Positions 4,325 through 64,000 of a stretch of DNA of 64,000 nt are shown here, in pieces. The notes under the pieces are model-generated. The model ran no database searches. It was not told the origin of the DNA and saw only the letters and a program-made list of their open reading frames with translations. How positions within the stretch are numbered: position 1 is the first letter of the stretch; every line of letters begins with the position of its first letter. The stretch covers positions 1 to 64,000 of the IMG/VR virus record IMGVR_UViG_3300032213_003338; one strand, given 5' to 3'. This stretch comes from a virus. A program made the translations under genes and the position numbers.

Positions 4325-4822
4325 TTATTTTCTTCGCAGCGCATGAGCTATGAGATTTTTCGCCACGTCGGCCTTGTTTTCACGCTTGGTCGCTACTACA
4401 AAATTCGGAGTTTGGGACTGTTGTTTCTTCGCTGCCGCAATTGCCTGTGAAGCCTTTGCGACGATTTCTTGCTCTGTGATTACCTTTTCAATCTTGTTGC
4501 TTACTTTGCTTACAGCCTTTCTTAGCTCAGCAAATGACTCTTCTGACATGGCTTTAAGCTCTGGCAGGTCTTCTTCTGTATAGCTTTCGCCAACCATTTC
4601 TCGCATTTCAGCAAGTCTGTCAGCGCCTACTTTGTTTTCGTAGGCTTGATCGATAATCTCTTCTGCTTGTGCTTTGAAGTCTTCTAGCTCTTCTAAACGA
4701 GCTAGTTTTAGGTTCATGTTTTCAATGTGGGTTGTCGCCAAAGCAATTGCTTGTTCGGCAAAAACCAATTGTTCTTTAAGCTCCAGAACCTCAGTATCTT
4801 TATTTGTATTTGTATCTGACAT
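4325..4822 (-). CDS. nested in-frame capsid scaffold protein
   Basis: A 165-residue product starting at an internal ATG (4822) in frame with the protease gene and ending at the same stop. Its own promoter-like GTGTATAAAAAC and a strong AGAGG ribosome site sit directly before it, inside the protease coding region. The sequence is acidic and coiled-coil rich (LEELEDFKAQAEEIIDQAYE), ending in a basic tail. This is the lambda C/Nu3 arrangement; expression is inferred from the initiation signals. Confidence 0.75.
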   Translation of the reverse strand: MSDTNTNKDTEVLELKEQLVFAEQAIALATTHIENMNLKLARLEELEDFKAQAEEIIDQAYENKVGADRLAEMREMVGESYTEEDLPELKAMSEESFAELRKAVSKVSNKIEKVITEQEIVAKASQAIAAAKKQQSQTPNFVVATKRENKADVAKNLIAHALRRK

Positions 4823-6241
4823 TTTTTCCTCTTTGTTTTTATACACAAAATTATTTTTATTTTCTAAACTACTGTCTTTTTTGTTTGCTTGGCTTAGAGC
4901 GTTATCGCCAGCAGATCCTGGTGCTGATTGCTGAGATGATGGCCCGCTTTGGTTTTCTTGTGGATTAAAAGTACCCTCTTGAATATCGCCAGAATCGCCC
5001 TCTGGTTTGTCTATATAATAGGAAGTTTCGGATTCTTGGGAAATGCCAAGCTCTTTAAGGACAAAACGAAGCTCGCGCTCATCCTCGCATGGACGATACT
5101 GTGGTATTGCCATTTGCTTTTCGAGATCTGTTGGGTCTGCCATTAAAGCCGAGTAAAGAAGTGGTTTGTCGCCGTGTCTGTCTTCCTGATAAAGGTGATA
5201 ACCAGTGCAGCCAAGTTTTATTTTTCCGACGCTTTCGGCTTCTTTTGCTGTGAAAAACAAGAATCCATCAGCTGGTGGCTTAAAAGAAGTTGGCATTTCT
5301 CTTTTATTTTTTAGGTCTTGTGGGGTGTCTGTTCTGGAAACATTTGAAGTGTCATCTGGCATTTCTGCTGGATTTAATATTGCACCAGGCTCTTGAAGTG
5401 TTGATATTGGAGAGGTTGCGTTCATAAGATCCTGTGCGGTTTGAGCAAAAATTATGCTGTATATTTTGTTCTTCTTTTTGTTTGCTGGTTCGTAAACTAC
5501 ACCTTGTCCAGAAAAAGTTATGTTCTTTAGCCATCTTCCGATCTGGTATCTTTGACCCTTGTATTGGGTTGTTCCTTTACCACCAAAAGCCAAAAGATCT
5601 TTAGACATTTTTGAGTTTGCGTCAGATCTGTCAAGGAATATTATTTCAGAGTCATCGTCTTTTCTTAGCGCGTATCCGAAGTCCTCAAAGAAGCATTCCA
5701 TTGAAACAAATAGCTTTCCGTCTTCAATGCCCTTTTTTATTTTTTGAGCGTAGGTTGGAAAGTAACCGGACCAAATTATACCGTCCTGTTTAACGTGTAT
5801 TTTTCCGCTGCAAGATCGTGGATTTTTGCAAGAAGACTCGTCTGCCTTAATTATATTAACCTCTGGAACATCCCCTTCTACAAGAGTTGTCTCAAGCATT
5901 ACGCCTATATTTTCATTTTCGGTGTCTTCAGAACCCTTGTGCATCCAATTGATTGGTTTAAATTTTGCTGTTGAGTATCGTGAAAGTATCTCTTCGGATG
6001 TAAAAACATCGTCGTTTGCATTCCATATATCGCTAACAAGTATTGATGATAGAGTTGTAACATCATCGGTTGGCTTATAGCCATTTGGTGCAATTGAGGC
6101 GATTGCGCAAGCGTTGCCCTTGCAGACATTATTAAGAGAATCTGTTTTTACAGAAATGTCGGTGACTAAAGTTGAGTCACATTTTGTTTTGTTATTAACT
6201 AAAAGTGAAGCTATTTCTTTTTCGCCTTCAAAGACTTTCAT
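4325..6241 (-). CDS. prohead maturation protease fused to scaffold
   Basis: A 638-residue protein. Residues about 60-270 resemble phage prohead proteases: INWMHKG with a candidate catalytic His, IGVM, a VSMECFF segment with a candidate catalytic Ser, then ITFSGQGVVYEPANKK near 250, matching the FSGxGxVxxPAN end seen in such enzymes. A Pro/Ser/Gln-rich linker (about 420-465) leads to a coiled-coil scaffold region (474-638) that also has its own internal start. The expected role is cutting of scaffold and capsid proteins in the prohead. The exact protease clan and catalytic residues are not certain. Confidence 0.7.
   Translation of the reverse strand: MKVFEGEKEIASLLVNNKTKCDSTLVTDISVKTDSLNNVCKGNACAIASIAPNGYKPTDDVTTLSSILVSDIWNANDDVFTSEEILSRYSTAKFKPINWMHKGSEDTENENIGVMLETTLVEGDVPEVNIIKADESSCKNPRSCSGKIHVKQDGIIWSGYFPTYAQKIKKGIEDGKLFVSMECFFEDFGYALRKDDDSEIIFLDRSDANSKMSKDLLAFGGKGTTQYKGQRYQIGRWLKNITFSGQGVVYEPANKKKNKIYSIIFAQTAQDLMNATSPISTLQEPGAILNPAEMPDDTSNVSRTDTPQDLKNKREMPTSFKPPADGFLFFTAKEAESVGKIKLGCTGYHLYQEDRHGDKPLLYSALMADPTDLEKQMAIPQYRPCEDERELRFVLKELGISQESETSYYIDKPEGDSGDIQEGTFNPQENQSGPSSQQSAPGSAGDNALSQANKKDSSLENKNNFVYKNKEEKMSDTNTNKDTEVLELKEQLVFAEQAIALATTHIENMNLKLARLEELEDFKAQAEEIIDQAYENKVGADRLAEMREMVGESYTEEDLPELKAMSEESFAELRKAVSKVSNKIEKVITEQEIVAKASQAIAAAKKQQSQTPNFVVATKRENKADVAKNLIAHALRRK
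4836..4848 (-). promoter_or_regulatory. internal promoter motif for nested scaffold gene
   Basis: GTGTATAAAAAC on the minus strand, within the protease reading frame and about 14 bases before the internal ATG at 4822, followed by AAAGAGG. Confidence 0.6.
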
Positions 6242-12158: not shown

Positions 12159-12477
12159 TTATCCTCTGTATTTCTTCGGTGTTTTTTTGACAAATAATTT
12201 TAAAAAACTCCGATTCAAACTGCTCCTCTTTTCCAGTTACCAGCTCGTGGTGTTTTTTGCAAAGGGTTATTCCATTAAATTTCTCTGTTCTTAGCCTTGC
12301 TGAGTTTGCATATTTTTTGATGTGATGCACTTCAAGACCTTTTTTTACGCCACATCCTGGAAACTGGCATGAAAACTCATCTCTTTTAAGAACATCTTTT
12401 CTGAAACGCCAATACTCTGGTGAGTATCTACTGTCCCTACGCCTGAATTTGGGTTTCCTCAGCCTTTTCTTTGCCAC
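12079..12477 (-). CDS. HNH nuclease
   Basis: A 132-residue basic protein with a zinc-type HNH core: CQFPGC (about 38-43), GLEVHHIKKYA, a central Asn in FNGITL, then CKKHHEL. The start is GTG at 12477, just behind a GTGTATTAAA motif. Its place beside terL recalls the HNH proteins that assist terminase cutting in many phages, though a homing origin is possible. It overlaps genes on both sides. Confidence 0.82.
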   Translation of the reverse strand: MAKKRLRKPKFRRRDSRYSPEYWRFRKDVLKRDEFSCQFPGCGVKKGLEVHHIKKYANSARLRTEKFNGITLCKKHHELVTGKEEQFESEFFKIICQKNTEEIQRINELRKQGFLKEGQKNSRERYIRKRYH

Positions 12478-13459
12478 CGCTATTTAATACACTTTGAGCG
12501 TAATTAATACTGTAGTCGTGCTTATACATCTCATAAAGCAGGTCCTTCCATGTATACTCTGGTTGCCACCCAAGCTCTCTTTTAATTTTTGATGGATCTC
12601 CACAAAGAACATTTACCTCAAGCGGTCGATTAAAAGCTGGGTTTATCTTGCAGGCTTCTTCTGGATTAACATCCGCTAACCCACAAACATAATGCAGCGC
12701 GTCTTTAATTGATATAGTTTCACCAGTTGCAACAACGTAGTCGCTTGGTGTTTGCGCCTGAAGCATCATCCACATTGCTTTAACGTAGTCTTTTGCGTGG
12801 CCCCAGTCTCTTTTGGCTGCAAGATTTCCAAGCTCAATTGGTCCAGAAACACCAAGTTTATATCTAGCTATACCGTTTGTTATTTTTCTAGTGACAAAAT
12901 CAAAACCTCTTCTGGGGCTTTCGTGATTGAAAAGTATTCCACAGCAAGCATAAATACCGTAAGACTTACGATAAATATCAACCATGTTGTGCGCATACAT
13001 TTTTGCGGCAGAGTATGGGCTTCGTGGAACAAAAGGTGTTTTTTCTGATTGGTTTTCAGTTACGCCACCAAACATCTCGGATGTAGATGCCTGATAAAAT
13101 TTTGTATGTGGCGAATGCTTTGCTATTGCCTCAAGAACTATTGTTACCGCCGTACCATTAACATAGGCACAAGATATCGGCTCTTTAAAGCTTTGGCCAA
13201 CATGAGACATAGCGGCGAGATTGTAATATTCATCTGGCCTTATGTGGGAAATAATACTAAATATTCCAGAAGCATCTGTTATATCAAGGTTTATCTGATG
13301 AAAGTTTACGTTTTTTTCAGCCTCAAACATGTTAGAAGCGTTTTTTTCTGTTGAGCTTCTTCTATATATTCCATATACTTTGTATCCATTACTAAGTAAA
13401 AGCTCAGCTAAATATGAAGCGTCTTGTCCTGGGCAACCTGTGATTATTGCTGTTTTCAT
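12437..13459 (-). CDS. gmd: GDP-mannose 4,6-dehydratase
   Basis: A 340-residue short-chain dehydrogenase/reductase of the extended class. The NAD(P)-binding turn is TGCPGQDASYLA (about 7-18), and the catalytic set is Ser/Thr near 125-127 plus Tyr 149 and Lys 153 in YSAAK. The RRSS segment (33-36) is typical of this enzyme. It converts GDP-mannose to GDP-4-keto-6-deoxymannose, the first step to GDP-fucose and related sugars. The gene lies inside the packaging operon, overlapping neighbours by 4 and 41 bases; the glycosyltransferase at 60.9 kb is a possible downstream partner. Confidence 0.92.
   Translation of the reverse strand: MKTAIITGCPGQDASYLAELLLSNGYKVYGIYRRSSTEKNASNMFEAEKNVNFHQINLDITDASGIFSIISHIRPDEYYNLAAMSHVGQSFKEPISCAYVNGTAVTIVLEAIAKHSPHTKFYQASTSEMFGGVTENQSEKTPFVPRSPYSAAKMYAHNMVDIYRKSYGIYACCGILFNHESPRRGFDFVTRKITNGIARYKLGVSGPIELGNLAAKRDWGHAKDYVKAMWMMLQAQTPSDYVVATGETISIKDALHYVCGLADVNPEEACKINPAFNRPLEVNVLCGDPSKIKRELGWQPEYTWKDLLYEMYKHDYSINYAQSVLNSGGKEKAEETQIQA
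12484..12493 (-). promoter_or_regulatory. candidate late promoter motif
   Basis: AGTGTATTAA on the minus strand, inside the 3' end of the dehydratase gene and 6 bases before the HNH GTG start. Confidence 0.5.
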
Positions 13460-14298
13460 TGTTGTTCTCTTGTTTTCTTTATTGTTTCTGAATCTAGTAA
13501 TTGAGGAGCTAGTTCTCCGTCCATATATTCTATGGCATTACGCATGCTATCTTGTTTTTTTTCCATGGAAAGCCGAAGCAATTCTGCCATACGACCCTCT
13601 TTTTCCCTTGTCTGCATGGATTCAAACTTTTTACAAAGTGAGAAGAATGTGTCTCCACCTACTTTGCCCTTTTCTTCTCTTTGGCGTCTAGTTGCATTAA
13701 GTGTTTCGTTTAGCTTTGTAGATTTTTCTAATAAATCTTTGTATTCTTTATTTAAGTCTGTTGCCCGCATAGACGCATTGAATATTTTTTGATATAGCTC
13801 GGCTTGTTTTGGGTCTGACAGATCCAAATCTTTGACATCAACAATATCATTATTTGCCATAAGAGAATCCCGTATTCTCATGGCGTCATAATAGTCTTTT
13901 TGATTCTTGTCTATCCTTAATTTTAAAAATATTAGCTGCTCAACAGTGTTTTGCTCTGTGTGGGTGAGGTCTTCAAGCTGAATTTTATAATTTGCCCATT
14001 CTTCGGAAAATAAAATCCAGTCTTCTTCCGGTAGTTGTTTTTTTATTCTTGACCCTCTTGGGCTTGTTTCAAATGAACGAACGTGAAAATCAAATATATC
14101 TCTGTTTTGATAATCTTTTCTTTGTTCTATCATCACAACCGGATCTTTGGTTGTGTTTTTCATCATGCCAATACTTTTTCTGTAGCGCTCCACAGTTTTT
14201 ATTGAACAGCCGATATGTTTTGCTATATCAGCGTCTGTTTTGTATTTGCAGTTATTTTCTATGTATATCTTGTCAGCTTCTTCAATTCGTTTTGCCAT
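13456..14298 (-). CDS. probable terminase small subunit
   Basis: A 280-residue protein with an N-terminal helix-turn-helix (YKTDADIAKHIGCSIKTVERY, here positions about 18-38) and a long helical, coiled-coil-rich remainder. DNA-binding head plus oligomerising helices, and location upstream in the terL operon, fit a small terminase that recognises packaging sites. It could instead be another DNA-binding regulator. It overlaps the dehydratase gene by 4 bases and the sigma-like gene by 17. Confidence 0.6.
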   Translation of the reverse strand: MAKRIEEADKIYIENNCKYKTDADIAKHIGCSIKTVERYRKSIGMMKNTTKDPVVMIEQRKDYQNRDIFDFHVRSFETSPRGSRIKKQLPEEDWILFSEEWANYKIQLEDLTHTEQNTVEQLIFLKLRIDKNQKDYYDAMRIRDSLMANNDIVDVKDLDLSDPKQAELYQKIFNASMRATDLNKEYKDLLEKSTKLNETLNATRRQREEKGKVGGDTFFSLCKKFESMQTREKEGRMAELLRLSMEKKQDSMRNAIEYMDGELAPQLLDSETIKKTREQQ

Positions 14299-14878
14299 CT
14301 CGCCACTCCCCCATTATTTGTGTTATTTCTAAACGAAGCTTATTTTTATAATATGAATTTACAGGTTCTTCAGATAGACAGGCGCGATATATTTCAAGCC
14401 CTTCTTCTGATAGACGCGCTTCTACAAAGTCTTTTAGCTCCCCAAAGACAACAGAGTTTTCTGTTTCGTTTTTACAAGTCGCTGGCTCGTATGCAACAGA
14501 GTCGTCTTTTGAGTTTCTTGCTTTTGCGCTAAGCGAAACTCTAGCCTTTTTGTGTTGTTCATTTAAACTACCACAATGGTCTCTATAAAAGTTTTTAAGT
14601 CTATTTTTGACAACCCTGTTGAGCCAACGCTCAAGCGAATTTATGTCGTCCCAGCCAATACCTTTTTCTGGTTCGTAAAACTTTAACTGCTGCATGCAAA
14701 TAAGACGGGCTTGCGAAGCTATATCTTCTACTGTCATGTAAGCAAACGTTTTGCCCATGTGGGTTTGGGCTATTTTTTCAACTAATGACAAAACCTCGTC
14801 TCTTGAGATTTTCGCCCCAGATGTTTTTGATATTTTTTTCAAAAAGATTGCGACTGCGTCTTTCTGAGGTCTTTTCAC
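14282..14878 (-). CDS. sigma-70-like factor, candidate late sigma
   Basis: A 198-residue protein first in the leftward operon. Residues about 45-100 (VEDIASQARLICMQQL, then LERWLNRVVKNRLKNFYRD) match the pattern of sigma region 2, with aromatic and basic residues placed to bind and melt a -10 element. A clear region 4 helix-turn-helix is not visible at the C-terminus. The start is GTG, five bases after a consensus TATAAT, so the factor may be made early by host polymerase and then drive the GTGTATTA motifs. Confidence 0.65.
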   Translation of the reverse strand: MKRPQKDAVAIFLKKISKTSGAKISRDEVLSLVEKIAQTHMGKTFAYMTVEDIASQARLICMQQLKFYEPEKGIGWDDINSLERWLNRVVKNRLKNFYRDHCGSLNEQHKKARVSLSAKARNSKDDSVAYEPATCKNETENSVVFGELKDFVEARLSEEGLEIYRACLSEEPVNSYYKNKLRLEITQIMGEWRDGKTN

Positions 14879-15964: not shown

Positions 15965-16810
15965 TTAATCCAAGATAAATGTTTCTTGAGGTGTAGATGG
16001 CCAATTTGGTAAACTTTCTGGATTTGTTGGAGAATTTGAATTACATGGATTTGTTCTTGCTGTTTCTGGATTTGATGCTGTAAATGTGCCAATCGTTGTT
16101 GGTGTATACGAACCTCCTGATTTCATTATCGCAATCATTGGTTCTGTTCTGTCACTTTGTGTTTGATTATACCAAGTTGATCTTTTCATTTGGTTTGCCG
16201 CTTCTACATAGTCTGGTGGCTGTTGTTTTAAGGCTGCTATTAATAAAACAAAGTTTCTTATATCTGCTTGATAGCTTAGCGAAACCAAAACACATTGTAC
16301 TGGATACGGTAATCTTGACCATGCTTCTGGACCTAAAAGGTTAAATATAACCTTATATGCGTTTTGTAGATCTACATCCGCCCACTGCCAAGCAGTATCA
16401 ATAGATACTGGAGCTTGAGATGTTCCTGGCATTGGACTATATCCATTTCTAGAACCTGCAGAAAATATTATTGGATCAGTGTCGGAGTTTATGCCATCCA
16501 TTACTGATGTAAAATATCCACCAAGCCTTGATCGAATTCTTGAAATTGAAACTTTTCTTGTGTCAATTAGTGTTCCAACTCCTACTGTCCAATAGCCTTC
16601 GCTATCTCTATATCTATAGGGCCTATAGCCCTCCCAAAAACCAATTAGGCTTTTCCAGTATGCATTAAGCTTAAAACAAGGAATAGGTGCGGGCTTTGGT
16701 TTTTTCGGTGGTTTTGCTGCTGGCTCGGCTGGCGATGGTGTAAAAACTGTTGGTTCTGGCTTTGCGACGCCAAGCACGATACTAAGTTTATTAATAGCGG
16801 AAAAATCCAT
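15965..16810 (-). CDS. T4-type lysozyme (GH24) with N-terminal leader
   Basis: A 281-residue endolysin or virion lysozyme. After a leader (INKLSIVLGVA, residues 6-16) and a Pro/Lys/Ala linker (17-44) comes a glycoside hydrolase 24 domain: Glu 60, Asp 69 and Thr 75 keep the spacing of T4 lysozyme Glu 11, Asp 20, Thr 26, within YRDSEGYWTVGVGT. It cleaves peptidoglycan glycan strands. I start it at the ATG at 16810, ten bases after a GTGTATTAAAAAT motif. The leader is shared with neighbouring proteins, so virion packaging is possible. Confidence 0.85.
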   Translation of the reverse strand: MDFSAINKLSIVLGVAKPEPTVFTPSPAEPAAKPPKKPKPAPIPCFKLNAYWKSLIGFWEGYRPYRYRDSEGYWTVGVGTLIDTRKVSISRIRSRLGGYFTSVMDGINSDTDPIIFSAGSRNGYSPMPGTSQAPVSIDTAWQWADVDLQNAYKVIFNLLGPEAWSRLPYPVQCVLVSLSYQADIRNFVLLIAALKQQPPDYVEAANQMKRSTWYNQTQSDRTEPMIAIMKSGGSYTPTTIGTFTASNPETARTNPCNSNSPTNPESLPNWPSTPQETFILD

Positions 16811-16815
16811 ATTTT

Positions 16816-16825
16816 TAATACACAA
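16816..16825 (-). promoter_or_regulatory. candidate late promoter motif of lysozyme gene
   Basis: TTGTGTATTA on the minus strand, five bases before the ATG at 16810 and directly after a terminator hairpin. Confidence 0.6.
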
Positions 16826-16833
16826 AAGAATAA

Positions 16834-16851
16834 CCCTCCTGTTAAGGAGGG
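16834..16851 (-). terminator. terminator between 16877 gene and lysozyme
   Basis: CCCTCC pairs with GGAGGG across a six-base loop; on the minus strand TTATTCTTTT follows. It separates two genes that each have their own promoter motif. Confidence 0.7.
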
Positions 16852-16876
16852 CTATTTTATTATCTTGTATTGTTTA

Positions 16877-17155
16877 TTATTGATGGACTGGTCTCATGGG
16901 GAGTGTTGTTTTAAAACCCTCAATTGGGCATGGGCCATCCATAGTTCCATGCTCTCTTCCAGTTTTATCTCTGCAAACACAAGTTGAGACCACATCTGGC
17001 CAAGTACCTGTAGTTTCTGTTTTGCAAACAACTCTTATCTCAGGAAGGCCAATTGGTTCCATTGGCTCCATCGATGGATCCGCCATTACAGATGGGGTCT
17101 TTTTTGCGGCAGTAATTGCGTTTGTGAGTTTTTCGATTGATTTTTCTAGTGACAT
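16877..17155 (-). CDS. small leader-tagged protein, unknown
   Basis: A 92-residue protein that begins MSLEKSIEKLTNAITAAKK, the amphipathic leader seen in the lysozyme and four other neighbours. The rest is Pro/Thr-rich with four Cys, two of them in CVCRDKTG. Promoter motif GTGTATAAA lies 17 bases upstream. Probably delivered to the same place as the lysozyme. Confidence 0.6.
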   Translation of the reverse strand: MSLEKSIEKLTNAITAAKKTPSVMADPSMEPMEPIGLPEIRVVCKTETTGTWPDVVSTCVCRDKTGREHGTMDGPCPIEGFKTTLPMRPVHQ

Positions 17156-17171
17156 GGTTATTCCTTATTTT

Positions 17172-17181
17172 TTATACACTA
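17172..17181 (-). promoter_or_regulatory. candidate late promoter motif
   Basis: TAGTGTATAA on the minus strand before the 17155 start. Confidence 0.5.
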
Positions 17182-17185
17182 ATTA

Positions 17186-17503
17186 TTAAAACATAACAGG
17201 CTGTGTTATGCATTCACTCCAATTACATGGAACTGGCACTGGTCCAGTTGTAGAAATAGCGCCACCAGGAGCGGCTCTTTGATAAGTAGTGCATTGGCAA
17301 CGAGGACTCTGTTCAAAACAACCTAATATTTTTATATTAGCATTCCTAGTAATGTGTGCTTTTACACTTTCGCATTTGGAAGTACCGCTGTTACGAGGAA
17401 ATTGGTCATCGCCAGGTAACCAAGGACTAGTTGGCGCTGACATACGACCGCTAGCTGCTTTAATTACTTGTGTTAAACGATTTATAGTATTTTCTAACGA
17501 CAT
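17186..17503 (-). CDS. small leader-tagged Cys-rich protein, unknown
   Basis: A 105-residue protein with N-terminus MSLENTINRLTQVIKAAS, nearly the same as that of the next gene, then a Ser/Pro-rich, Cys-containing body (CFEQSPRCQC). The two genes look like diverged duplicates at least at the leader. Promoter motif GTGTATAAAA precedes it. Confidence 0.6.
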   Translation of the reverse strand: MSLENTINRLTQVIKAASGRMSAPTSPWLPGDDQFPRNSGTSKCESVKAHITRNANIKILGCFEQSPRCQCTTYQRAAPGGAISTTGPVPVPCNWSECITQPVMF

Positions 17504-17518
17504 TAATTATATATCCTT

Positions 17519-17529
17519 TTTATACACTA
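17519..17529 (-). promoter_or_regulatory. candidate late promoter motif
   Basis: TAGTGTATAAA on the minus strand, 15 bases before the 17503 start. Confidence 0.5.
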
Positions 17530-17530
17530 A

Positions 17531-17974
17531 TTATCTAAATGGATCGAGATTCGGTGACTCAACCATCATTTCAATGTTTGGTCTGTCTGGAATAATAATC
17601 CCTGGTTTTACGTAAGTTGGCTTTATTGAAGGCTTCGTGGTTTTTTCGCTTACTTTAATTATACTGCGTCTAATTAGCTCCATGCGAAAAGCTTTATAAA
17701 CCCCTGAATACATTCCTTTTCCTGGATTTCCACACTTTTGGTTGAATAGATCGGAAAAAGATCGAATTATTTGTTCGACACACTCAGAAGAAAGCTGCTG
17801 AGTCTTCGCCTTGATGGCTATGTCTGACGCTATTTTAGAAATATCGGTTGGTTTCCATTTGCACGGAAGGGCACGCCTTGAAGGGCTTATTTTTAAATAC
17901 GAGCACGGAACAGCGTTTTGCTGATCAACAGCAAGAGATAATTTTTTTATTGCGGCAATTATTTTTTCTTGCAC
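17531..17974 (-). CDS. leader-tagged protein, unknown
   Basis: A 147-residue protein from a GTG start at 17974. The leader reads IIAAIKKLSLAVDQQ. The central part is helical and basic with Cys residues, and the tail is Pro/Ile-rich. It overlaps the preceding gene by 16 bases. Function unknown. Confidence 0.55.
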   Translation of the reverse strand: MQEKIIAAIKKLSLAVDQQNAVPCSYLKISPSRRALPCKWKPTDISKIASDIAIKAKTQQLSSECVEQIIRSFSDLFNQKCGNPGKGMYSGVYKAFRMELIRRSIIKVSEKTTKPSIKPTYVKPGIIIPDRPNIEMMVESPNLDPFR

Positions 17975-18588
17975 GGTTTATTTCTCGCTATTCTTGCGGC
18001 TTTTTCTAAATATTTTTTTCTTATATCTTCTTTATTTTTTTCAAACTTCTTTTTTCTATCACTGACTGTTGCGCCGTATGGGCTGCATTGGGCATTATAA
18101 GACTCTGTTTCTCTTTCTATTTCAAGAGAATACAGTATTTCATTATGCTTTGTTAGAATCTTGCATTTCTCTTCGTTCTGTTTAGCGTCTAGCTTGTCTC
18201 TATTAGTTGGCGCTTTGTCTCCAGGCTCCATAGAGTTAGGGGTCAAAACTGTTGGCATAACCGCGCTTCTTCCACGTCCTGGTCTCATTGATCCACCGTC
18301 TTGGTCTGGACCAACCGAACCTGCTTGCCCAAGCTTATGCTTTTCGCCTTCTGGCAAAAATGATGTTTCTCCTTCTGGCGCACAGGTTTCCCATTTCCAG
18401 CTAAATGGCGTCATTCCGCTTTCGGGGTGCGTGTTATCTATCCAGGTTATACGATCAGCAGCTCGTGTACCATCGCTTTTACAGCTGTTTGCGCTGCTGA
18501 TTTTTTTGTCGTATTTTGATTTTATATTACTGCATTCTGTCGGAGCAGCACCAAGAACATAAATTAATTTTGATATTGAGTTACTCAT
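17959..18588 (-). CDS. leader-tagged protein, unknown
   Basis: A 209-residue protein. I choose the ATG at 18588 because it overlaps the preceding stop by 4 bases (ATGA) and puts the shared leader MSNSISKLIYVLGAAP at the very N-terminus; a longer frame from 18630 would hide it. The centre is Gly/Pro-rich, the C-terminus strongly basic and helical with a Lys-rich end. Cys pairs suggest disulfides or metal binding. Confidence 0.6.
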   Translation of the reverse strand: MSNSISKLIYVLGAAPTECSNIKSKYDKKISSANSCKSDGTRAADRITWIDNTHPESGMTPFSWKWETCAPEGETSFLPEGEKHKLGQAGSVGPDQDGGSMRPGRGRSAVMPTVLTPNSMEPGDKAPTNRDKLDAKQNEEKCKILTKHNEILYSLEIERETESYNAQCSPYGATVSDRKKKFEKNKEDIRKKYLEKAARIARNKPCKKK

Positions 18589-19265
18589 TGTGGATTTGCT
18601 CCTGCTGGTGCTGCTTGTGTTGGTTGGCATGGTTTACATGGCGCGCCAAGCGCAGAGCGAACACCTTCTGTTATTGAATTAATTTGAGCTTTAAAAAAGT
18701 CTCTCTTTTTTGAGGTGTTTGGGTTTTTCATGCCACCGGCAGAAGAGTACGGCTCGCAGCCTTTTCTTGCCAATTCTATAGCTTCTAGAATTGCCGCAGC
18801 ATATAACATATCCCATTTTCCGCGTATGTATTTGCCAGATCTAGCGTCTTTGTGACCTCTTGTTAGAGCGCATTTTCTTAATATTTTTATACATTTAACT
18901 AGATCCTCTTTCTTTTTTAAGAACGGATCGTTTTGGACTTCTGGAGCTGCCAATTGTGGATTTTGTGCGGCGGCGGCTGGAGGATAGGTGTTTGTTGGAA
19001 CATATGGAGCGTCATTAACGGAAAACTTAAATATTTCTGGTGGAAGCGGATTTCCATTTTGAGCGTTCCAGGTTTCAAATTCCCAAACCTGACCCAGTGT
19101 TCCGTATGTAAGACCATCAATCTGCTGAACACCAGCATTGTAGGCCTCATTTATTTTTTGACGAAAACCCTGCCACTTTGCGGTTATTTCTTTGCATCTT
19201 GGGGGTGTGGGCGGTGGCGCTGCACTTATTGCTAGATGTTTAGCTATGACTTTATTTAGGCTCAT
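18585..19265 (-). CDS. leader-tagged protein, unknown
   Basis: A 226-residue protein starting MSLNKVIAKHLAISAAPPP, then a globular region with WQGFRQKINEAYNAG and a Cys-rich, Pro-rich C-terminus (CKPCQP). First gene of the leftward leader-tagged run, with two nested copies of the promoter-like motif before it. Confidence 0.6.
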   Translation of the reverse strand: MSLNKVIAKHLAISAAPPPTPPRCKEITAKWQGFRQKINEAYNAGVQQIDGLTYGTLGQVWEFETWNAQNGNPLPPEIFKFSVNDAPYVPTNTYPPAAAAQNPQLAAPEVQNDPFLKKKEDLVKCIKILRKCALTRGHKDARSGKYIRGKWDMLYAAAILEAIELARKGCEPYSSAGGMKNPNTSKKRDFFKAQINSITEGVRSALGAPCKPCQPTQAAPAGANPQ

Positions 19266-19272
19266 ACACGTA

Positions 19273-19282
19273 TTAATACACT
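19273..19282 (-). promoter_or_regulatory. candidate late promoter motif, leftward
   Basis: AGTGTATTAA on the minus strand before the 19265 start; a second weaker copy (CGTGTATG) overlaps the start. It faces away from a plus-strand copy at 19302. Confidence 0.5.
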
Positions 19283-19301
19283 GAATGCTTTTTATTTTAA
19301 A

Positions 19302-19312
19302 GTGTATTTTAA
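19302..19312 (+). promoter_or_regulatory. candidate late promoter motif, rightward
   Basis: GTGTATTTTAA on the plus strand, three bases before the ATG at 19316. With so short a gap the transcript would be leaderless or nearly so. Confidence 0.55.
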
Positions 19313-19315
19313 GCC

Positions 19316-20146
19316 ATGGACACGTATCGTTTATTTGTGGCTGCTATTAATAAACAGGTAGAGGTTTTAGGTCTAGACGACCAGCCTAAAAAAACTGATA
19401 CTGCATCATGTCCAGAAATATCAATTGCAAAAACAATAGAAGATCTAGTTTTTGGCGTTCGAGCTTGTTTTACTGCAGGTGGTGGCGTTATAAGCTCCGC
19501 TATTGTCGTTGGAATGATCGTTACTAAACTGGGTGAGCTTGCAATAGGAATGATAAGATCTGGATCAGTATCAAACTGGAAAGATTTTTTTAGTATGCTG
19601 TGTTCTTTTTTAGAAACAATAATAAAAACACTTCGTGATATTGGTGTGATGTCTCAATTTTTGGCAAACCCAGCGCTAGTCCAAATCCTAATTGGTCAAA
19701 TTCTTGGAAAGCTAGGTTTTATTCTTGGTGAGACTTTCTATGGTATAAACCGTTCGGTTTTTGAAAGCCAAAACTTTAATAATTTTCTACGAGACCTTTT
19801 TGTTGGTGGACCAAACAACATTTCTGCTTTTTGCAGAACGGTAGCCCAAATGACAGAGGAGGAGGTTGGTGAATTAATTAATACCATTATGGCGAATTTT
19901 GAATCTTTTTCAGCTGCTCTAAATTCTGTTTACAGTGTTCTGTCTCGCGGATTGTCCCAAATTGATTTGCGACCTGCTTTGGTGCTAGCAATAGTTGCTG
20001 CTCTTGGAATAACTATTGCGAGCGGGGGAACTAGCACACCGATAACAGCGCCAGCGCTTGCGGTATTGGTTGCTGTTTTTATAATGTTAGGTATGGAGCC
20101 TCCTTCAGAAGAAGAGCTTTCGGGGTACGGAATAACAATTGGATAA
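19316..20146 (+). CDS. leader-tagged hydrophobic protein, unknown
   Basis: A 276-residue protein. The N-terminus (YRLFVAAINKQVEVLGLDDQ) resembles the leader of the lysozyme group. Several hydrophobic helices follow: about 55-72 (VISSAIVVGMIVTKLGELA), 100-150, and a C-terminal pair (ALVLAIVAALGITIASGG and ALAVLVAVFIMLGM). A membrane-active or internal virion protein is possible; no family is recognised. Confidence 0.55.
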   Translation: MDTYRLFVAAINKQVEVLGLDDQPKKTDTASCPEISIAKTIEDLVFGVRACFTAGGGVISSAIVVGMIVTKLGELAIGMIRSGSVSNWKDFFSMLCSFLETIIKTLRDIGVMSQFLANPALVQILIGQILGKLGFILGETFYGINRSVFESQNFNNFLRDLFVGGPNNISAFCRTVAQMTEEEVGELINTIMANFESFSAALNSVYSVLSRGLSQIDLRPALVLAIVAALGITIASGGTSTPITAPALAVLVAVFIMLGMEPPSEEELSGYGITIG

Positions 20147-20196
20147 AAAATGAAAAAAGAACTTAATTACAGACAGAACGGCTCTGTTTAAGGGCT

Positions 20197-20208
20197 TGTG
20201 TATTTACA
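20197..20208 (+). promoter_or_regulatory. candidate late promoter motif
   Basis: TGTGTATTTACA on the plus strand, three bases before the ATG at 20212. Confidence 0.5.
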
Positions 20209-20211
20209 AAT

Positions 20212-20883
20212 ATGGAAAACTTTTCACAAGGTGCAGAGTGGACAACTAGGTATAAAAATGATCTCCCTGACAGCGCTTTTCTTTATATTGAGGCTGGTGG
20301 CAAAAGGGACTCCGAGGGAAAAATCAAGCCTCGTTCGCTGCGACACTTTCCGTACAAGGACGCGGACGGCAAAGTTGACCGCGCGCACATTCTTAATGCG
20401 ATTGCACGAATCCCACAGGCTAAATTTCTGTCTCAGGCTCAAAAGGACAGACTGCAAGCACGGGCAAGGAGAATATATCTTAAGTTTGTAAAGTACAACA
20501 GCAAAAAAGCAAACTCGTTTGTTGATATTTTAAATAAACTTTCTGCGGCTGTTGGTGGTCCTAAAATAGCAATGGAAAAAATGGAGAAAATGGCACAGCG
20601 AATAGATCCAGTGGCTCAAGAAGTTTATGATATCGTCGTGCGTTTGTACTCCAATAACGAGTGTGTTATGAAAGCACTTGGCGATCTTAATATTTGGAGC
20701 AGTCGTAGGCGTGGAGACTGGAAGCCAGATTTTCTACGTTATTTAAATAATGAGGTAGAAGAAATCCGAAGACAAAATCCAATTTATAGTGCGGATGTAG
20801 TTAGCGCAATTTTAATGTCTCGGGCACACCAATGGATTGAGGGTTATGCGCCAGAATGCTTTCGTAATACTGTATTAGCATAA
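20212..20883 (+). CDS. DUF6582-like domain protein with internal leader motif
   Basis: A 223-residue protein. Residues about 15-85 (LPDSAFLYIEAGGKRD, PRSLRHFPYKDADGK, AILNAIARIPQAK) match a short domain often fused to phage head proteins or maturation proteases. At about 100-116 lies NSFVDILNKLSAAVGGP, the leader-like motif found at the N-termini of nearby proteins, then a helical C-terminal domain. Cleavage after the first domain would expose the motif; that is inference. Confidence 0.65.
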   Translation: MENFSQGAEWTTRYKNDLPDSAFLYIEAGGKRDSEGKIKPRSLRHFPYKDADGKVDRAHILNAIARIPQAKFLSQAQKDRLQARARRIYLKFVKYNSKKANSFVDILNKLSAAVGGPKIAMEKMEKMAQRIDPVAQEVYDIVVRLYSNNECVMKALGDLNIWSSRRRGDWKPDFLRYLNNEVEEIRRQNPIYSADVVSAILMSRAHQWIEGYAPECFRNTVLA

Positions 20884-23282: not shown

Positions 23283-23414
23283 TAAACGCTAAAGTGCTTA
23301 TATTGATTTTTGGTGATGTGGTATTGGGTGCACCCCCCCGACCGACCGCGCACCTATGAGTGGCTCCGGCGAGTGCCGGACAATCACCCCCCCCCTCCAC
23401 TAGGAGTACTGACC

Positions 23415-23891
23415 GTGACGACCAAGAACCTGACCGCGAACCCGACCGTGACCGCCTCCCCCGCCCTCGTGCTCGCCCGCGCCTCCTCCACCTCCGTGAT
23501 CACCGAGTGGGACGTGGCGAAGGTGATCGCGGCTCCCGCGAAGTTCTGCAAGGACCTCCTCCACGCCATGCGGACGTGGAAGGCGAACCGCGAGATGCCT
23601 GAGCAGACGATGCGCGACATGCGGAAGGCGGGAGGCCTCTACGGGAGGAACCCGAACGGCGAGACCAAGAAGGCATGGACGCTCGCGAACGCGAAGGTTG
23701 CCCGTGCGACCGCCCAGTACGCGACCGCCGTTGACCTCCTCTCGAGCATCCCGAACCTGAGCGGGATCACGATCGGAAAGATCTCCGACGTGACCACGGA
23801 GCGCGAGCTGACCGCTCGTGACCTCCTGGATGGGCTGACCCTCCCGCCCTCGCAGAGCGAGATCGCGAAGTGGCTCGCTGACGCCGCCTGA
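23415..23891 (+). CDS. Ala/Thr-rich protein, unknown
   Basis: A 158-residue protein from a GTG at 23415 with an AGGAG site eight bases upstream. It begins with a Thr/Ala/Pro-rich segment and continues as helical, with ITEWDVAKVIAAPAKFCKD. In size and N-terminal composition it recalls the paired proteins at 28839 and 30460, though it lacks their conserved C-terminus. Codon use is extremely GC-rich, consistent with high expression or foreign origin. Confidence 0.65.
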   Translation: MTTKNLTANPTVTASPALVLARASSTSVITEWDVAKVIAAPAKFCKDLLHAMRTWKANREMPEQTMRDMRKAGGLYGRNPNGETKKAWTLANAKVARATAQYATAVDLLSSIPNLSGITIGKISDVTTERELTARDLLDGLTLPPSQSEIAKWLADAA

Positions 23892-23898
23892 CCCCGAC

Positions 23899-23929
23899 CG
23901 TGCCGAGGGGGGAAACCCCCTCGAGCACG
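23899..23929 (+). terminator. strong GAAA-capped hairpin, possible terminator
   Basis: CGTGC and CGAGGGGG pair with CCCCCTCG and GCACG around a GAAA tetraloop, with one bulged A: 13 base pairs just after the 23891 stop. The following ATTTACAT is only a weak T run, so it may instead be the 5' part of the structured RNA or a processing site. Confidence 0.6.
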
Positions 23930-24243
23930 ATTTACATAGAACGCGCGAGTCGTAGGAACCCCCTCCGCGAGTGCGCGAGCGAGAGCGACCGGTGAAAGAC
24001 CCGGAGCGCGACGCTCGTGGCTCGGGCAGAAGCGGACCCGGCTCGGGACCCGACCCCCGGAACACGGGGACACGAAGCTCGGGAGTGCGCGAACCCCTGA
24101 TGATCACGACCGGGAACGGTGCGCTAGGGCGCGCCGAGCCGACCCGACCGAGACGCGCAAGCGTAGCGGTCCCCATAACGGAGGCCGGTTGTCGTGGTTA
24201 GTTCGCTGCCGTGAGCGTGTAATGCGCGCACGGAGCGGGACGG

Positions 24244-25112
24244 ACGGCCTGTGGAGGCCGTACCCTGCAGGGCAAGTAGTAGGATCACGGACGATCCTGC
24301 GAAGTACAGTACCCGTATGATACAGCGAGTAGCGCTAGGCCATGCTCGCCAACGGTCGAAGGGTACGATAGGCTAGTTCCACCGACAGATACCGTAGGGC
24401 GGCTGTCGCGTGCTCCCCGGCTAGGCCGGCAGGTGCGCGGCGGTCCTACTGTGGTGATACGTGGGTGCGTTTGGCGTTGCGTTGCGACGTGATGCGGAGC
24501 GTGCCAGGCGGTCTGATATCTATGCAGCGGCTGCGAAGTTTCCTAACGGATTCGCTACGGCTGGAAGGACTGCAACTTCTGATAAGTAGCCAGCAAGGAT
24601 ATGCCACAGTTGATGATGCCCACGACCTAGATCCAATAGCGGGTAACTCCGCTAGGCGGTCAGCCTTCGGGCTGACGACAATAGGTGCGCTATGTTCGGT
24701 AGCCAACGGCTACGGGGTTGCATACGCGCGACAGACGCACCTGGGAGTCGATCATGCGGGGTTGCTTAGCGACCAGCCACGCATGACACGGCGGTATCTG
24801 TAGGCTACACAGTAGTGGGGTAAGCGGACGATTCTACTGCAGTAGCCGAGTCACAGTCACCAGTAACCCGCAGCCGCACGCATGGCTGCAGATGGGCGGG
24901 GCTAGCGTGCTATCACGCCCCGTTTCCCTACCCCAGCACGGCGGAAACGCTGTGCTGTGGGTTTCCCGGATCTACCGGCAAGACCCTGGCGGTCAAACAT
25001 CCGCTATGGGCACACAGTCTCACCCAGCCTTGACTGGCTGCGGTGGGCATTCACTTATGGACCGCAGCGTGCGGTTTCAAAGTCCTCATGTTACTTGCAC
25101 TCGTAAGGTGCA
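24244..25112 (+). ncRNA. candidate large ornate structured noncoding RNA
   Basis: About 0.9 kb (1.24 kb from 23,892 to 25,130) with no credible gene and dense complementary segments. Examples: 24244-24261; 24281-24298; 24309-24314 with 24361-24366; 24383-24388 with 24403-24408; 24475-24489; 24535-24540 with 24574-24579; 24636-24640 with 24689-24693 enclosing 24659-24676 (UUCG loop); 24699-24713; 24752-24786; 24803-24847 (12 bp in two steps); 24870-24889; 24897-24922; 24930-24962 (GAAA loop); 25038-25044 with 25061-25067. The UUCG and GAAA loops are canonical only on the plus strand. Size and phage setting recall GOLLD and ROOL RNAs; class not established. 23,930-24,243 is GC-rich with no gene I trust and less regular pairing. 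Confidence 0.65.
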
Positions 25113-25130
25113 GAAAGGTAGGATCTTGGT

Positions 25131-25589
25131 ATGAAGATCAGCAATCAGACGACGTTCACTTGGGTGAATGGTTGGAGCCTGACGATTGTTCCGTCTTGGA
25201 ACTGCGTGAAGATCAGTGTGATGGGGCCTCGCCAGGTGTTCTATAGGGTGTCGGAGGATCGGACGTACGTGCAGCCATCCGCTGATGAGGCGTTCGATTA
25301 CCTGAGCACCAAGGGTCTGGCTGAGGTGATGGTGCTGATCGGGCGCATGCCATCGCGTGTTACGGTCGAGCCGTTCGCGGTGGAGGAGCCGAAGAAGGAG
25401 AGCCTGGATGGTGTGCCGATGCCGTCGTCTGTGCGACTGAGGGCCAAGGCGACCATCGTGGATAACATGTGCCGGGTGTGTGGAGGGGAGACCAAGCAAG
25501 TGGGGGAGGTGCGCACCTGTGATGACTGTGGTCACGGGGCTGAGGGCGTGGCTTACGACCCCAACGAATTCAACAGCATGCAGTCCTAA
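25131..25589 (+). CDS. zinc-ribbon protein, unknown
   Basis: A 152-residue protein. Residues about 120-140 form a zinc ribbon (CRVCGG then CDDCGHG). The N-terminal part is beta-rich with several Trp. It follows the structured noncoding region with a GGTAGGA ribosome site. Role unknown. Confidence 0.6.
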   Translation: MKISNQTTFTWVNGWSLTIVPSWNCVKISVMGPRQVFYRVSEDRTYVQPSADEAFDYLSTKGLAEVMVLIGRMPSRVTVEPFAVEEPKKESLDGVPMPSSVRLRAKATIVDNMCRVCGGETKQVGEVRTCDDCGHGAEGVAYDPNEFNSMQS

Positions 25590-25610
25590 AGTCCTGAAAG
25601 GAGGACTCAC

Positions 25611-26021
25611 ATGAACCAGAAATGGCAGTTCCGAGGTCACTACCGCACCAACGAGTGGAGCGGCGGCTTGACCATGAACCGGTTCCCGAAGCCCAAGACC
25701 CCGGGGCGCACACTCATGCGCTCTGCATCCAAGGGCTTCCAGGTGGACCAGCAGGGTGGGAATCGCATCCCGAAGGTGGGGCTGGAGCGTAGGGCAATCG
25801 CGCTCGGTCACACAGTGGTGCGACCCACTGAACCGCTACCGCTTCCTGGTCGTCTACCCAGAGAAGTGAAGGCTCGCAATCGCCACGTGAAGCTGCGCGA
25901 CGCTGCGCAGCAGTGGCGTCCGCTTCCCTCTCGTAGGGTGGATGCGGCAGCACGCAGGGCAAGCGCTGCTCTGGTGCATGACTTCAAGGCGGCACTCGCC
26001 GCAAGAGGAGGTGTCCTGTGA
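25611..26021 (+). CDS. basic protein, unknown
   Basis: A 136-residue Arg/Pro-rich protein with an AAAGGAGG ribosome site. The high basic charge suggests nucleic-acid binding. The stop overlaps the GTG start of the exonuclease gene by 4 bases, indicating coupled translation. Confidence 0.55.
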   Translation: MNQKWQFRGHYRTNEWSGGLTMNRFPKPKTPGRTLMRSASKGFQVDQQGGNRIPKVGLERRAIALGHTVVRPTEPLPLPGRLPREVKARNRHVKLRDAAQQWRPLPSRRVDAAARRASAALVHDFKAALAARGGVL

Positions 26022-26536: not shown

Positions 26537-26542
26537 ACCATA

Positions 26543-26577
26543 CCTCTCATGGCTTAATTGCTGTGAGAGGATTTTCT
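26543..26577 (+). terminator. terminator after the exonuclease gene
   Basis: CCTCTCA pairs with TGAGAGG, followed by ATTTTCT. A second hairpin (CTAGTGG with CCACTAG, 26,575-26,596) follows in the leader of the next gene. Confidence 0.75.
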
Positions 26578-26626
26578 AGTGGTAAGTATGCCACTAGTGT
26601 TCACACTCCAGAATAGGAGAGTTACT

Positions 26627-26980: not shown

Positions 26981-26988
26981 ACTCCTCA

Positions 26989-60471: not shown

Positions 60472-60855
60472 ATGTCAAACATTAAAAATTTACTATCGAA
60501 ACTACAAAAGGCTGTTGGCCAAGACGAAATGGGTATGACTCAGATGCAAATGATGATGCAGCAGCCAGAGATGGGTGGTGGTATGCAATCAGCTCCTGCC
60601 GAAATGCCCGAAATGCCAGAGATGCAAATGATGAGCGAAGAAGAGCCAGAAATGGAAGAAATGGATACCTCTGAGGTTGATGAAGAGACCAAAGAAATGT
60701 TTATGAGCGACATCAATGCTCTTATCGCAAACGCTGGCGATATTGCTAATCACGTTTCTCAAGGCAAAGAAATTGAAGCTTGGATGCTTGGCAAAATAAC
60801 ATTAGCCGCAGATTATATCTCTGCAGTTCGTGATAATTTTGTTGGTGATAAATAA
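60472..60855 (+). CDS. Met/Glu-rich leader-tagged virion protein
   Basis: A 127-residue protein. The N-terminus MSNIKNLLSKLQKAVGQDE fits the leader seen on the lysozyme group 40 kb away. The middle is Met/Glu/Pro-rich low complexity. The C-terminus (EAWMLGKITLAADYISAVRD) is a segment often found in phage virion proteins. A terminator follows. Confidence 0.6.
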   Translation: MSNIKNLLSKLQKAVGQDEMGMTQMQMMMQQPEMGGGMQSAPAEMPEMPEMQMMSEEEPEMEEMDTSEVDEETKEMFMSDINALIANAGDIANHVSQGKEIEAWMLGKITLAADYISAVRDNFVGDK

Positions 60856-63020: not shown

Positions 63021-63504
63021 CGTTTCTGAAATTAAAATATGTGAATGGATAGCAAAAAACAGATACGCCTCCAATAGAAACGGGGGCGTTTCTGATAAAA
63101 AGATCGGTCCTCAGTCGTGTGAAGAAACGGATCTAGAGGGAATATGTGGAGAGTTTGCTTTTTGCAAAGCTCTTAATTTATATCCAGATATGTCCATAAG
63201 TCCAAGAAAAGGCTCACATGATGTATTTGCCTTTGGTAAAACAATAGACGTTAAAACAACAAAATACAAAACCGGTAAGCTGCTAGCTAGACAGTCAAAG
63301 AACGAAGCCCCTTCTGAGATTTACGTTTTAATTGTTGGTCAGTGTCCTTCATATAAAATAGCTGGATGGTGTAGTGGATCAGATCTTATTAAAGACAGCA
63401 ATCTTTTAGATCTTGGTTACGGAAAAACATACGGACTTGAGCAGTCTGCGCTCAAGCCCGTAGAAAAGATTAAGGCGTCTTTTTTATCTAACCTTAAGAA
63501 TTGA
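63004..63504 (+). CDS. PD-(D/E)XK nuclease-like protein
   Basis: A 166-residue protein with EGICGEFAFCKALNLYP (Glu 50), HDVFAFGKTIDVKTTKY (Asp 73, Asp 82, Lys 84). The E...D...DxK order is the core of this nuclease fold and common in phage hypothetical proteins. It overlaps the methyltransferase gene by 17 bases and the next minus-strand gene by 21. Confidence 0.65.
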   Translation: MNITLNVSEIKICEWIAKNRYASNRNGGVSDKKIGPQSCEETDLEGICGEFAFCKALNLYPDMSISPRKGSHDVFAFGKTIDVKTTKYKTGKLLARQSKNEAPSEIYVLIVGQCPSYKIAGWCSGSDLIKDSNLLDLGYGKTYGLEQSALKPVEKIKASFLSNLKN

Positions 63505-64000
63505 CATTACTGTATCCATTATTTGCTTTTCGGTTGTTATTTTATCTTGGGCCATTTTAAGATTTGCAGCTAACGCGCAGTTGTCTCCACCAAGTTCAGC
63601 ACATGTTTTACCAGCGTGGAAAATACCCCCCACGCATTCTGCTGGTGCACCTACTTCACTACACCTAAAGCCGCCAAAGTCACCATCAGGACTACAGCAA
63701 GCGCCAGTCTGAGCAACTAAAAACATGCACTTAACTGCGTAAAGCCGACGAATAATATCAACCATTTCATTAATATCTGCATTACTAGGACAATTTACTA
63801 GATTATTATTTTCGTCCCTTCCGCAATGATATGATCTTATCATACGTTCAACGAAACCATTAGGACCAAATACGGAACCCCATGTTGAAGGGTCGTCAGG
63901 ATTAAATTCTGGGTGCTGCCTTTGCCAAGTCAAAGGCTGATCTCTGGTCGTTACAATTTGTTTTGACCCCTCGTCTTCATTGATGTATAACGCCTCGCAC
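63484..64000 (-). CDS. partial Cys-rich protein, cut by the window end
   Basis: The reading frame stays open to the right edge, so the start lies outside. The visible 170 or so residues are Cys-rich (GACCSPDGDFGGFRC, then CVGGIF, KTCAELGG), a pattern like repeats found in phage virion or adhesion proteins. The C-terminus is helical. Function unknown. Confidence 0.55.
   Translation of the reverse strand, partial: CEALYINEDEGSKQIVTTRDQPLTWQRQHPEFNPDDPSTWGSVFGPNGFVERMIRSYHCGRDENNNLVNCPSNADINEMVDIIRRLYAVKCMFLVAQTGACCSPDGDFGGFRCSEVGAPAECVGGIFHAGKTCAELGGDNCALAANLKMAQDKITTEKQIMDTVMSILKVR

Follow-up and report, generated by a model that had tools for sequence, protein, structure and literature searches.

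A leader shared by unrelated proteins

About 21 proteins of a 122.6-kb viral genome start with a short, basic amphipathic helix, the leader. This is a modular unit, kept by selection at the N-terminus of bodies that are otherwise unrelated. We consider it likely that this leader is a docking or packaging signal for virion cargo, which would be loaded into the particle and ejected at infection. The genome belongs to a near-complete, uncultivated tailed bacterial virus, and the window analysed here (64,000 nt) is a part of it. The TerL protein is only ~25% identical to those of isolate phages, and searches with the MCP returned no match in 50,697 isolate phage records or, as a host search, in GTDB genomes. 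From the length of the tape measure (1905 aa), we conclude that these phages are long-tailed.

The leader has the consensus h-x-[KR]-[LQ]-x-x-[AV]-[LI]-x-A-[AE], often with a Pro-rich linker after the helix. The first-pass annotation had given its form as I-x-K-L-(S/T), which fits some leaders but not all; in its broad form it reads h-x-[KR]-[LQ]-x-x-[AV]-[LI]. The same annotation had listed seven leaders at 15-20 kb, and all of them, from the lysozyme to 19316-20146, were found where they had been placed.

On the minus strand, a T4-lysozyme-like (GH24) protein (15965..16810) carries MDFSAINKLSIVLGVAKPEPTVF (~16810-16745); its true start is the ATG at 16810, and the TTG at 16825 falls inside the promoter element. 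On the same strand lie a 92-aa protein containing Cys (16877..17155; MSLEKSIEKLTNAITAAK, 17155-17102), a 105-aa Cys-rich protein (17186..17503; MSLENTINRLTQVIKAAS, 17503-17450), a 147-aa protein (17531..17974; MQEKIIAAIKKLSLAVDQQN, 17974-17915), a Cys-containing body (17959..18588; MSNSISKLIYVLGAA, 18588-18544) whose G001 orthologue has another leader, MNPIDKLKFVLAKEP, and the 226-aa p226 (18585..19265; MSLNKVIAKHLAISAAPP, 19265-19218). The p226 leader, reported earlier as IAKHLAISAA, is weak by itself and gains its support from orthologues. The plus strand encodes the 276-aa p276 (19316..20146; MDTYRLFVAAINKQVEVLG, 19316-19375), followed by a fused gene (20212..20883) in which a domain termed 'LPDSAFLYI' (residues 1 to ~100) precedes a leader (FVDILNKLSAAVGG, ~20512-20571) and then a variable body. 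This last copy had been read as an internal recurrence of the motif. In the relative G010, however, the first 116 aa form a separate gene that is followed by a leader-bearing gene; hence the copy is not truly internal, but heads a second gene that has become fused to the upstream one. The 'LPDSAFLYI' domain, which is associated with head morphogenesis, is part of the leader cluster and recurs with 55% identity inside a 661-aa protein of phage THSA-485A; that protein weakly matches Peptidase_S78 and sits between the portal and the next head gene.

The distant copy at 60,472 was borne out as well: a 127-aa Met/Glu-rich protein (60472..60855, plus strand) carries MSNIKNLLSKLQKAVGQ (60472-60525) with a profile score of 13.9, and its G001 and G013 orthologues retain the leader. 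At the window's edge, the first of five Cys-rich array genes (63484..64000, minus strand) begins with MKRSIEDIIKLVAVKQAVPPPPTRLEKP; the array ends at genome position 67513, outside the window. In total, 12 leader genes elsewhere in the genome add to the nine sites noted at first.

Enrichment, modularity and selection

Enrichment over chance was assessed by two profile searches. In one, a PSSM trained on the 15-21 kb leaders alone was scored on the remainder of each proteome. At ≥9 bits, G001 gave 8 matches within the first 25 positions versus 0 elsewhere, and G000 gave 3 versus 2 elsewhere, with 0.27 expected. PSSM matches in the tape measure and at the portal N-terminus were set aside, as they may be due to chance, and so was one at the scaffold C-terminus, which is absent from the top list of G001. 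In the other search, an iterated profile was run with internal-window decoys on 387 dereplicated genes from this phage and its relatives. It gave 50 N-terminal matches against ~2 expected. The shared leader noted at first is real, and more widespread than had been stated. Six of these matches are plainly false positives: five come from one methyltransferase-like family (KSINPNA...SIEA), which we do not count as leaders, and one is the tape measure. Windows that hold a leader are amphipathic, with a mean hydrophobic moment of 0.50 as against 0.27 (p=1e-12), and they are basic (charge +1.5 vs +0.2).

The earlier statement that the bodies are otherwise unrelated also holds, as the leader is carried by 25 (permissive clustering) or 37 (strict) body families, and unrelated leadered bodies occur in five genome regions. 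Relatives with 83% MCP identity keep the leaders, on new bodies, and a DUF5856 domain is leadered in G013 while leaderless in G007. Purifying selection is apparent in the MSLEK leaders (pS 0.55, pN 0.18); across leaders, amino acids are retained with synonymous sites near saturation. The divergence of the leader does not match that of the body in a1 (leader pS 0.09 vs body 0.46) or in c2 (0.96 vs 0.40), from which we conclude that leaders have been exchanged between orthologous bodies.

A late-promoter-like element upstream of leader genes

Leader genes have in common with head and tail genes a late-promoter-like element, GTGTATWW. It was first spotted on the leader genes and tested afterwards. 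Leaderless mRNAs are also predicted for this phage. On the minus strand, GTGTAT lies upstream of the lysozyme (16818..16823), 16877-17155 (17174..17179), 17186-17503 (17522..17527) and 18585-19265 (19276..19281); on the plus strand, it lies upstream of 19316-20146 (19302..19307) and 20212-20883 (20198..20203). Portal, protease/scaffold, decoration, tape-measure and tail genes are also preceded by it. Its upstream occurrences favour the sense over the antisense orientation (26 vs 6, 24 vs 4 and 24 vs 4). At the level of transcription units, linkage is strong in G000 (20/21 leader genes vs 51/136) and weaker in G001 (14/19 vs 79/166). Given that this test hinges on long operons, direct promoters were counted in its place: GTGTAT is found directly upstream of 10/21 leader genes versus 20/161 others in G000 (p=4e-4), 11/19 versus 19/166 in G001 (p=1e-5), and 5/14 versus 12/96 in G013 (p=0.04). 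A candidate late sigma factor is encoded at 14282..14878 (minus strand); this putative sigma-70 region-2-like protein matches Pfam Sigma70_r2 with E=0.0037, which falls below the Pfam cut-off.

Hydrolases, hairpin proteins and Cys-rich bodies

The leadered lysozyme matches T4 lysozyme in a PDB profile search (E=9e-10) and retains the catalytic E-x8-D-x5-T. At one locus, relatives have either the GH24 lysozyme (5 contigs) or a non-homologous hydrolase (6 contigs), never both, and both enzymes are leadered. The replacing hydrolase is probably like SleB, an enzyme with a catalytic GE...NR block: its only two PDB matches are both SleB, weak (E 0.22 and 0.29) and colinear in two blocks, and no Pfam match was obtained at E≤1.

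A second class of leader proteins (type II), to which p276 belongs, has a conserved C-terminal hydrophobic hairpin. Hydrophobic C-terminal segments are present in all 15 type II proteins tested, at least two of them in 14, compared with a single borderline case among 11 type I proteins. In p276 the hairpin spans approximately residues 221-260. Its AF2 model (low confidence, mean pLDDT 56) predicts the leader as a separate short helix (residues 3-14) followed by an unstructured stretch.

Leader-bearing bodies are also richer in Cys (3.2% vs 1.7%). Cys-rich bodies are unusual for proteins delivered to the cytoplasm, which counts against the cargo reading.

A candidate partner and the question of cleavage

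Between the portal and the MCP/decoration genes lies the gene of a 638-aa protein (4325..6241, minus strand), a candidate prohead protease joined to a coiled-coil scaffold, so named from its position and motifs, and a candidate partner for the leader. NWMHKG and LFVSMECFF are invariant in five homologues, and an internal start is possible near residue 474. PDB and PHROG searches returned no useful match, the sole PHROG being a weak 'amidase', hhalign found no homology to the THSA-485A protein, and the AlphaFold model is of very low confidence (pLDDT 36).

The first-pass annotation had likened the leaders to T4 sequences that a prohead protease removes. This part of the proposal is not sustained. 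The T4-type cleavage signal [ILFM]-x-E is not enriched (present in 14/66 leader proteins, against 115/354 of the rest), neither leader profile ranks T4 IPI-III, which have no sequence relation to the leader, and a search of the genome for an S77 or S78 protease, or for any prohead protease by homology, found no match. A homology to the T4 capsid-targeting sequence (CTS) through Tyr4 and Phe7 of p276 was likewise dropped, as the T4 profile scoring gave it no support. The leader is not a demonstrated CTS, and its removal by proteolysis is not favoured. Virion targeting, by contrast, is the reading with the best support, in view of the modularity, the shared late-promoter-like element and the sensible clients.

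Proposed function and alternatives

Tagged proteins would be made alongside those of the head and tail, from a late promoter that they share. Via its leader helix, each would bind a single partner, the same for all, in the particle under assembly, most likely the scaffold, the core or the prohead inner face, and the Pro-rich or disordered linker would let any body hang from the leader. We infer virion presence, a capsid-interior location, a partner and ejection; the cargo would ride in the virion until infection. The clients fit ejected cargo because a cell-wall hydrolase occupies a fixed locus and others have membrane-hairpin C-termini: the payload could comprise a peptidoglycan hydrolase and proteins whose membrane hairpins might line a conduit, while fast-changing Cys-rich cargo may act on the host. 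With slightly less than even confidence, we further suggest that, in a clade of large phages, a single docking peptide works as a general code for cargo, whereby a late gene that gains a ~15-residue leader would send its product to the virion. Its payload would be ~20 exchangeable proteins (cell-wall hydrolases that can stand in for one another, conduit proteins with membrane hairpins, and hypervariable effectors rich in Cys).

An unlikely variant is a T4-type propeptide, which would guide proteins into the prohead core and then be cut off by the prohead protease. The overall design is the same (short N-terminal amphipathic unit, diverse bodies, variable clusters), a protease/scaffold-like gene is present, and p276 shares Tyr4 and Phe7 with IPII and IPIII, targeting by the T4 CTS residing in residues 4 and 7 (PMC9026906). 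However, no common cleavage site was seen, and the motif, profile and protease searches described earlier speak against it. That the leader is instead an in-plane anchor, bringing proteins to the inner membrane in lysis or infection and not to the virion, is quite unlikely: its amphipathic, basic character, the type II membrane hairpins and the lysozyme client would suit an anchor, but conservation extends beyond amphipathicity (MSLEKxIQKLT), which is unusual in simple anchors, type II proteins have hydrophobic segments of their own and would have no need of a leader, and a role at the membrane is not evident for the soluble Cys-rich bodies.

It is decidedly improbable that the lysozyme is a plain lysis endolysin whose leader is unconnected with virions. 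It has the GH24 fold, like T4 e lysozyme, and no second obvious endolysin was noticed in a non-exhaustive look at the gene list; yet the same leader is found on the non-homologous hydrolase that occupies this locus in relatives and on ~20 non-lytic proteins, and the leader is neither a SAR nor a signal helix. Promoter, RBS and leader DNA are near-identical across tandem cassettes, with gene conversion at the a1 leader, as would be expected if the shared N-termini were functionless remnants of duplication or recombination at a conserved promoter-plus-start cassette. This we regard as very improbable in the face of the retained leader amino acids, the new leadered bodies in relatives, and the five regions whose leadered bodies have no detectable relation. 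Least credible is an export or maturation leader (double-glycine/RiPP-type or a secretion signal) handled by a host transporter. Short leaders do end in AA, GA or GG ahead of small Cys-rich bodies, but a search for a C39 peptidase (PF03412) was negative in the phage genome and positive in 8/14 control genomes, many of the bodies are of large size, among them the lysozyme and 340-aa membrane proteins, and the Pro-rich linker follows the leader with no fixed cleavage motif.

Comparison with known systems

Few phage cargo-targeting signals are known (T4 IPs, P1 DarB), and to our knowledge the choice of virion cargo by phages is mostly not understood. A leader recognisable by sequence on 25-37 families would let metagenomic genomes reveal virion cargo, including likely anti-host effectors, and would serve as a natural loading tag in protein delivery.

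By analogy, the best reading is that the leader acts like a T4 CTS or a microcompartment encapsulation peptide. The T4 CTS ends in [ILF]xE, the cleavage signal for the gp21 protease. In IPI-III and Alt, this short N-terminal stretch suffices for packaging, on divergent bodies and in gene sets that vary among related phages (PMC9026906). One short N-terminal sequence common to several different proteins is likewise found here, although with ~20 clients per genome, and 25-37 body families, as opposed to a handful, and without an LxE signal, sequence similarity or a detected S77 protease. In P1, the N-terminal 30 residues of DarB suffice to bring a reporter to the capsid, whereas Dar N-termini gave no consensus (PMC9024508), unlike the clear one seen here. 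Bacterial microcompartment encapsulation peptides also join an amphipathic helix to folded cargo by a flexible linker, comparable to the raised moment and Pro-rich linkers of the leader proteins; those systems are non-phage, with a different shell, and the likeness is one of design. Podovirus ejection proteins and crAss001 cargo are stored in the virion, some with predicted membrane helices, and are ejected ahead of the DNA (PMC10172136), but no common leader has been described for them, and the leader phages are long-tailed. Finally, compared with the T4 enzyme, the leadered lysozyme adds the leader, a Pro/Lys-rich linker and an insertion.

Enrichment of the leader at protein N-termini

The seven leaders reported at 15965-20883, together with two outlying copies, are all present where the first-pass annotation placed them, and the motif exceeds chance at N-termini in held-out proteomes and against internal-window decoys. 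A 14-residue profile, trained only on the 15-21 kb leaders and their orthologues, was scored on the remaining proteomes, with genes called by our own simple procedure. In G001, a colinear relative of 121,997 bases opened at a different point, 8 N-terminal windows score at least 9 bits versus 0 of 29,928 other windows; in the present genome (G000), 3 of 4,150 N-terminal windows do so versus 2 of 30,739 elsewhere. An iterated profile, with internal windows as decoys, gave 50 N-terminal matches against about 2 expected among 387 dereplicated genes of 15 related records. A few of its matches, to a methyltransferase family and the tape measure, are false positives.

A manual reading of all genes brings the total to about 21 leader genes, spread over several distinct parts of the genome. 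Five of them form an array at 63.5-67.5 kb (MKRSIEDIIKLVAVKQAVPPPPTRLEKP...), others occur in pairs (84.2-85.9, 91.2-92.4 and 102.5-103.3 kb), and one stands alone at 86.5 kb. The leaders are amphipathic and basic, and two kinds can be told apart. The first, type I (MSLEKxIxKLTxVIxAA; NPIDKLKFVLAKE and the like), precedes mostly soluble, often Cys-rich bodies, while type II (YxxFIxAxNKQ) precedes helical proteins. Hydrophobic C-terminal segments were found in all 15 type II proteins examined, 14 of which have two or more, making a hairpin. Of 11 type I proteins examined, only one has such a segment, and it is borderline. The array (L004, 63484-67513) encodes five paralogous Cys-rich leader proteins that share the C-terminal module GACCxxxGxFGGFxC...C.G.F..G..C....G..NC; those tested have no Pfam match, and none was found in the phage collection.

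Modularity, exchange and selection

The leader is modular. The bodies of 80 leader proteins, drawn from this genome and related ones, form 37 families (25 in a previous set of 66 to which no low-complexity filter was applied), the lists being profile matches supplemented by hand with type II and array proteins. A tandem array of cassettes in G001 (6381-8391) repeats promoter, start and leader ahead of different bodies, and a Pro-rich linker, PTRFDEPNxPxxTP, recurs behind different leaders on different proteins. Orthologous bodies carry either NSISKLIYVLGAA or NPIDKLKFVLAKE in one case and SSLNKLKFVISQSA or KSIAKLTELLVQQK in a second, and lysozyme orthologues carry three different leaders. DUF5856 has a leader in the related record G013 and none in G007 or, by sequence similarity, G010. 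The copy described as internal in 20212-20883 (+) is indeed present; given that in G010 the N-terminal 116 aa form a separate gene and the leader starts the next one, it is the result of a fusion and not truly internal.

The leader is also under selection, as synonymous divergence among MSLEK leaders is far above nonsynonymous (pS 0.55 vs pN 0.18). For a1, pS is 0.09 in the leader versus 0.46 in the body; this conflict between leader and body divergence shows exchange or gene conversion.

Proteins bearing the leader

The lysozyme is T4-lysozyme-like and retains the catalytic residues. In six related records its locus holds an unrelated leadered protein instead; in the PDB, this protein matches nothing but two entries for SleB, a cortex-lytic enzyme (E 0.22 and 0.29, in two colinear blocks). 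Exactly one of the two proteins occurs in 11 of the 11 records covering the locus; hence, some leadered cell-wall hydrolase seems to be required, irrespective of fold. The lysozyme body (15965-16825; 8444-9304 in G001) is near-identical between the two genomes, with a pS of 0.02 though that of adjoining genes is about 0.6-0.7, so the gene appears to have moved recently between these lineages.

The initial domain of 20212-20883 shares 55% identity with a portion of a 661-aa protein from Thermoanaerobacterium phage THSA-485A; the gene for that protein directly follows the portal gene, and the protein weakly matches a prohead protease. This likeness loosely ties the leader cluster to head morphogenesis.

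A late-promoter-like element

Leader genes have the element GTGTATWW about 14 or about 25 bases upstream, as do the portal, decoration, protease/scaffold and tape-measure genes and other genes of the tail. Upstream of genes, sense versus antisense occurrences number 26 vs 6 in G000, 24 vs 4 in both G001 and the related record G003, and 12 vs 1 in G007. In G000, G001 and G013, leader genes have the element directly upstream more often than other genes do; it was first spotted on leader genes and tested afterwards, making the enrichment values somewhat optimistic, and the structural genes form an independent set. T4-late-like copies precede structural genes at 2560, 4304, 6255, 7954, 9644, 14900, 59202 and other positions. 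No -35 element is evident. By analogy with T4 late promoters, recognition of GTGTATWW probably involves a phage sigma factor. The product of 14282-14878, a sigma-70 region-2-like protein (Sigma70_r2, E=0.0037) encoded beside packaging genes, is a weak candidate for this role. The commonest spacing is 14 bases before the ATG, and leaderless late mRNAs are therefore predicted.

A proposed docking role for the leader

We favour the reading that the leader is a docking leader for virion cargo. Leader proteins would be incorporated into particles by way of one shared receptor, on the scaffold, on the core or on the inside of the head, and would be ejected at infection. Removal by a prohead protease, which the first-pass annotation raised from the T4 example, is not favoured, because [ILFM]xE is not enriched in leader proteins and S77/S78 proteases were not detected in the genome. 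The motifs NWMHKG and LFVSMECFF of the candidate protease-scaffold gene at 4325-6241 (-) are conserved in five homologues.

In T4, targeting needs no more than the first ten residues of internal protein IPIII, of which residues 4 and 7 are the most important, and the set of internal proteins differs among relatives (PMC9026906). For P1, 30 residues of DarB suffice, and a consensus was not found among Dar proteins (PMC9024508). Microcompartment encapsulation peptides have a helix-plus-linker design in common with the present leader (PMC12339742). The present leader would work like all three, but by the tests made it does not belong to the T4 family. What is new is its breadth, with one recognisable leader across 25-37 protein families.

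Other features of the genome

The record has 122,608 bases, with the window covering bases 1-64000. Its first and last 50 bases are found again near the opposite ends, and such a direct repeat is expected if the assembly is complete and circularly permuted. Genes for TerL, the portal, an MCP-like protein and the tape measure are present, and no relative of the MCP was found among 50,697 isolate phage records. About 8 kb at 23300-31000 has 53-63% G+C, versus about 39-40% for the genome, with a sharp edge near 23.3 kb; G001 is colinear here and about 80% identical, and G013 likewise finishes in G+C-rich sequence. A GDP-mannose 4,6-dehydratase-like gene (12437-13459) lies amid the DNA-packaging genes and is kept in all relatives covering the site. 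A metallopeptidase-like protein with an HEYCH motif (G001 56454-57098; G000 orthologue 90547-91185), whose gene has a late-promoter element of its own, is possibly a second lysis or virion enzyme. Finally, a possible holin/spanin pair lies beside the portal gene at 7201-7931: the first product is small and has hydrophobic segments, and the gene after it is lipoprotein-like and has a late promoter.
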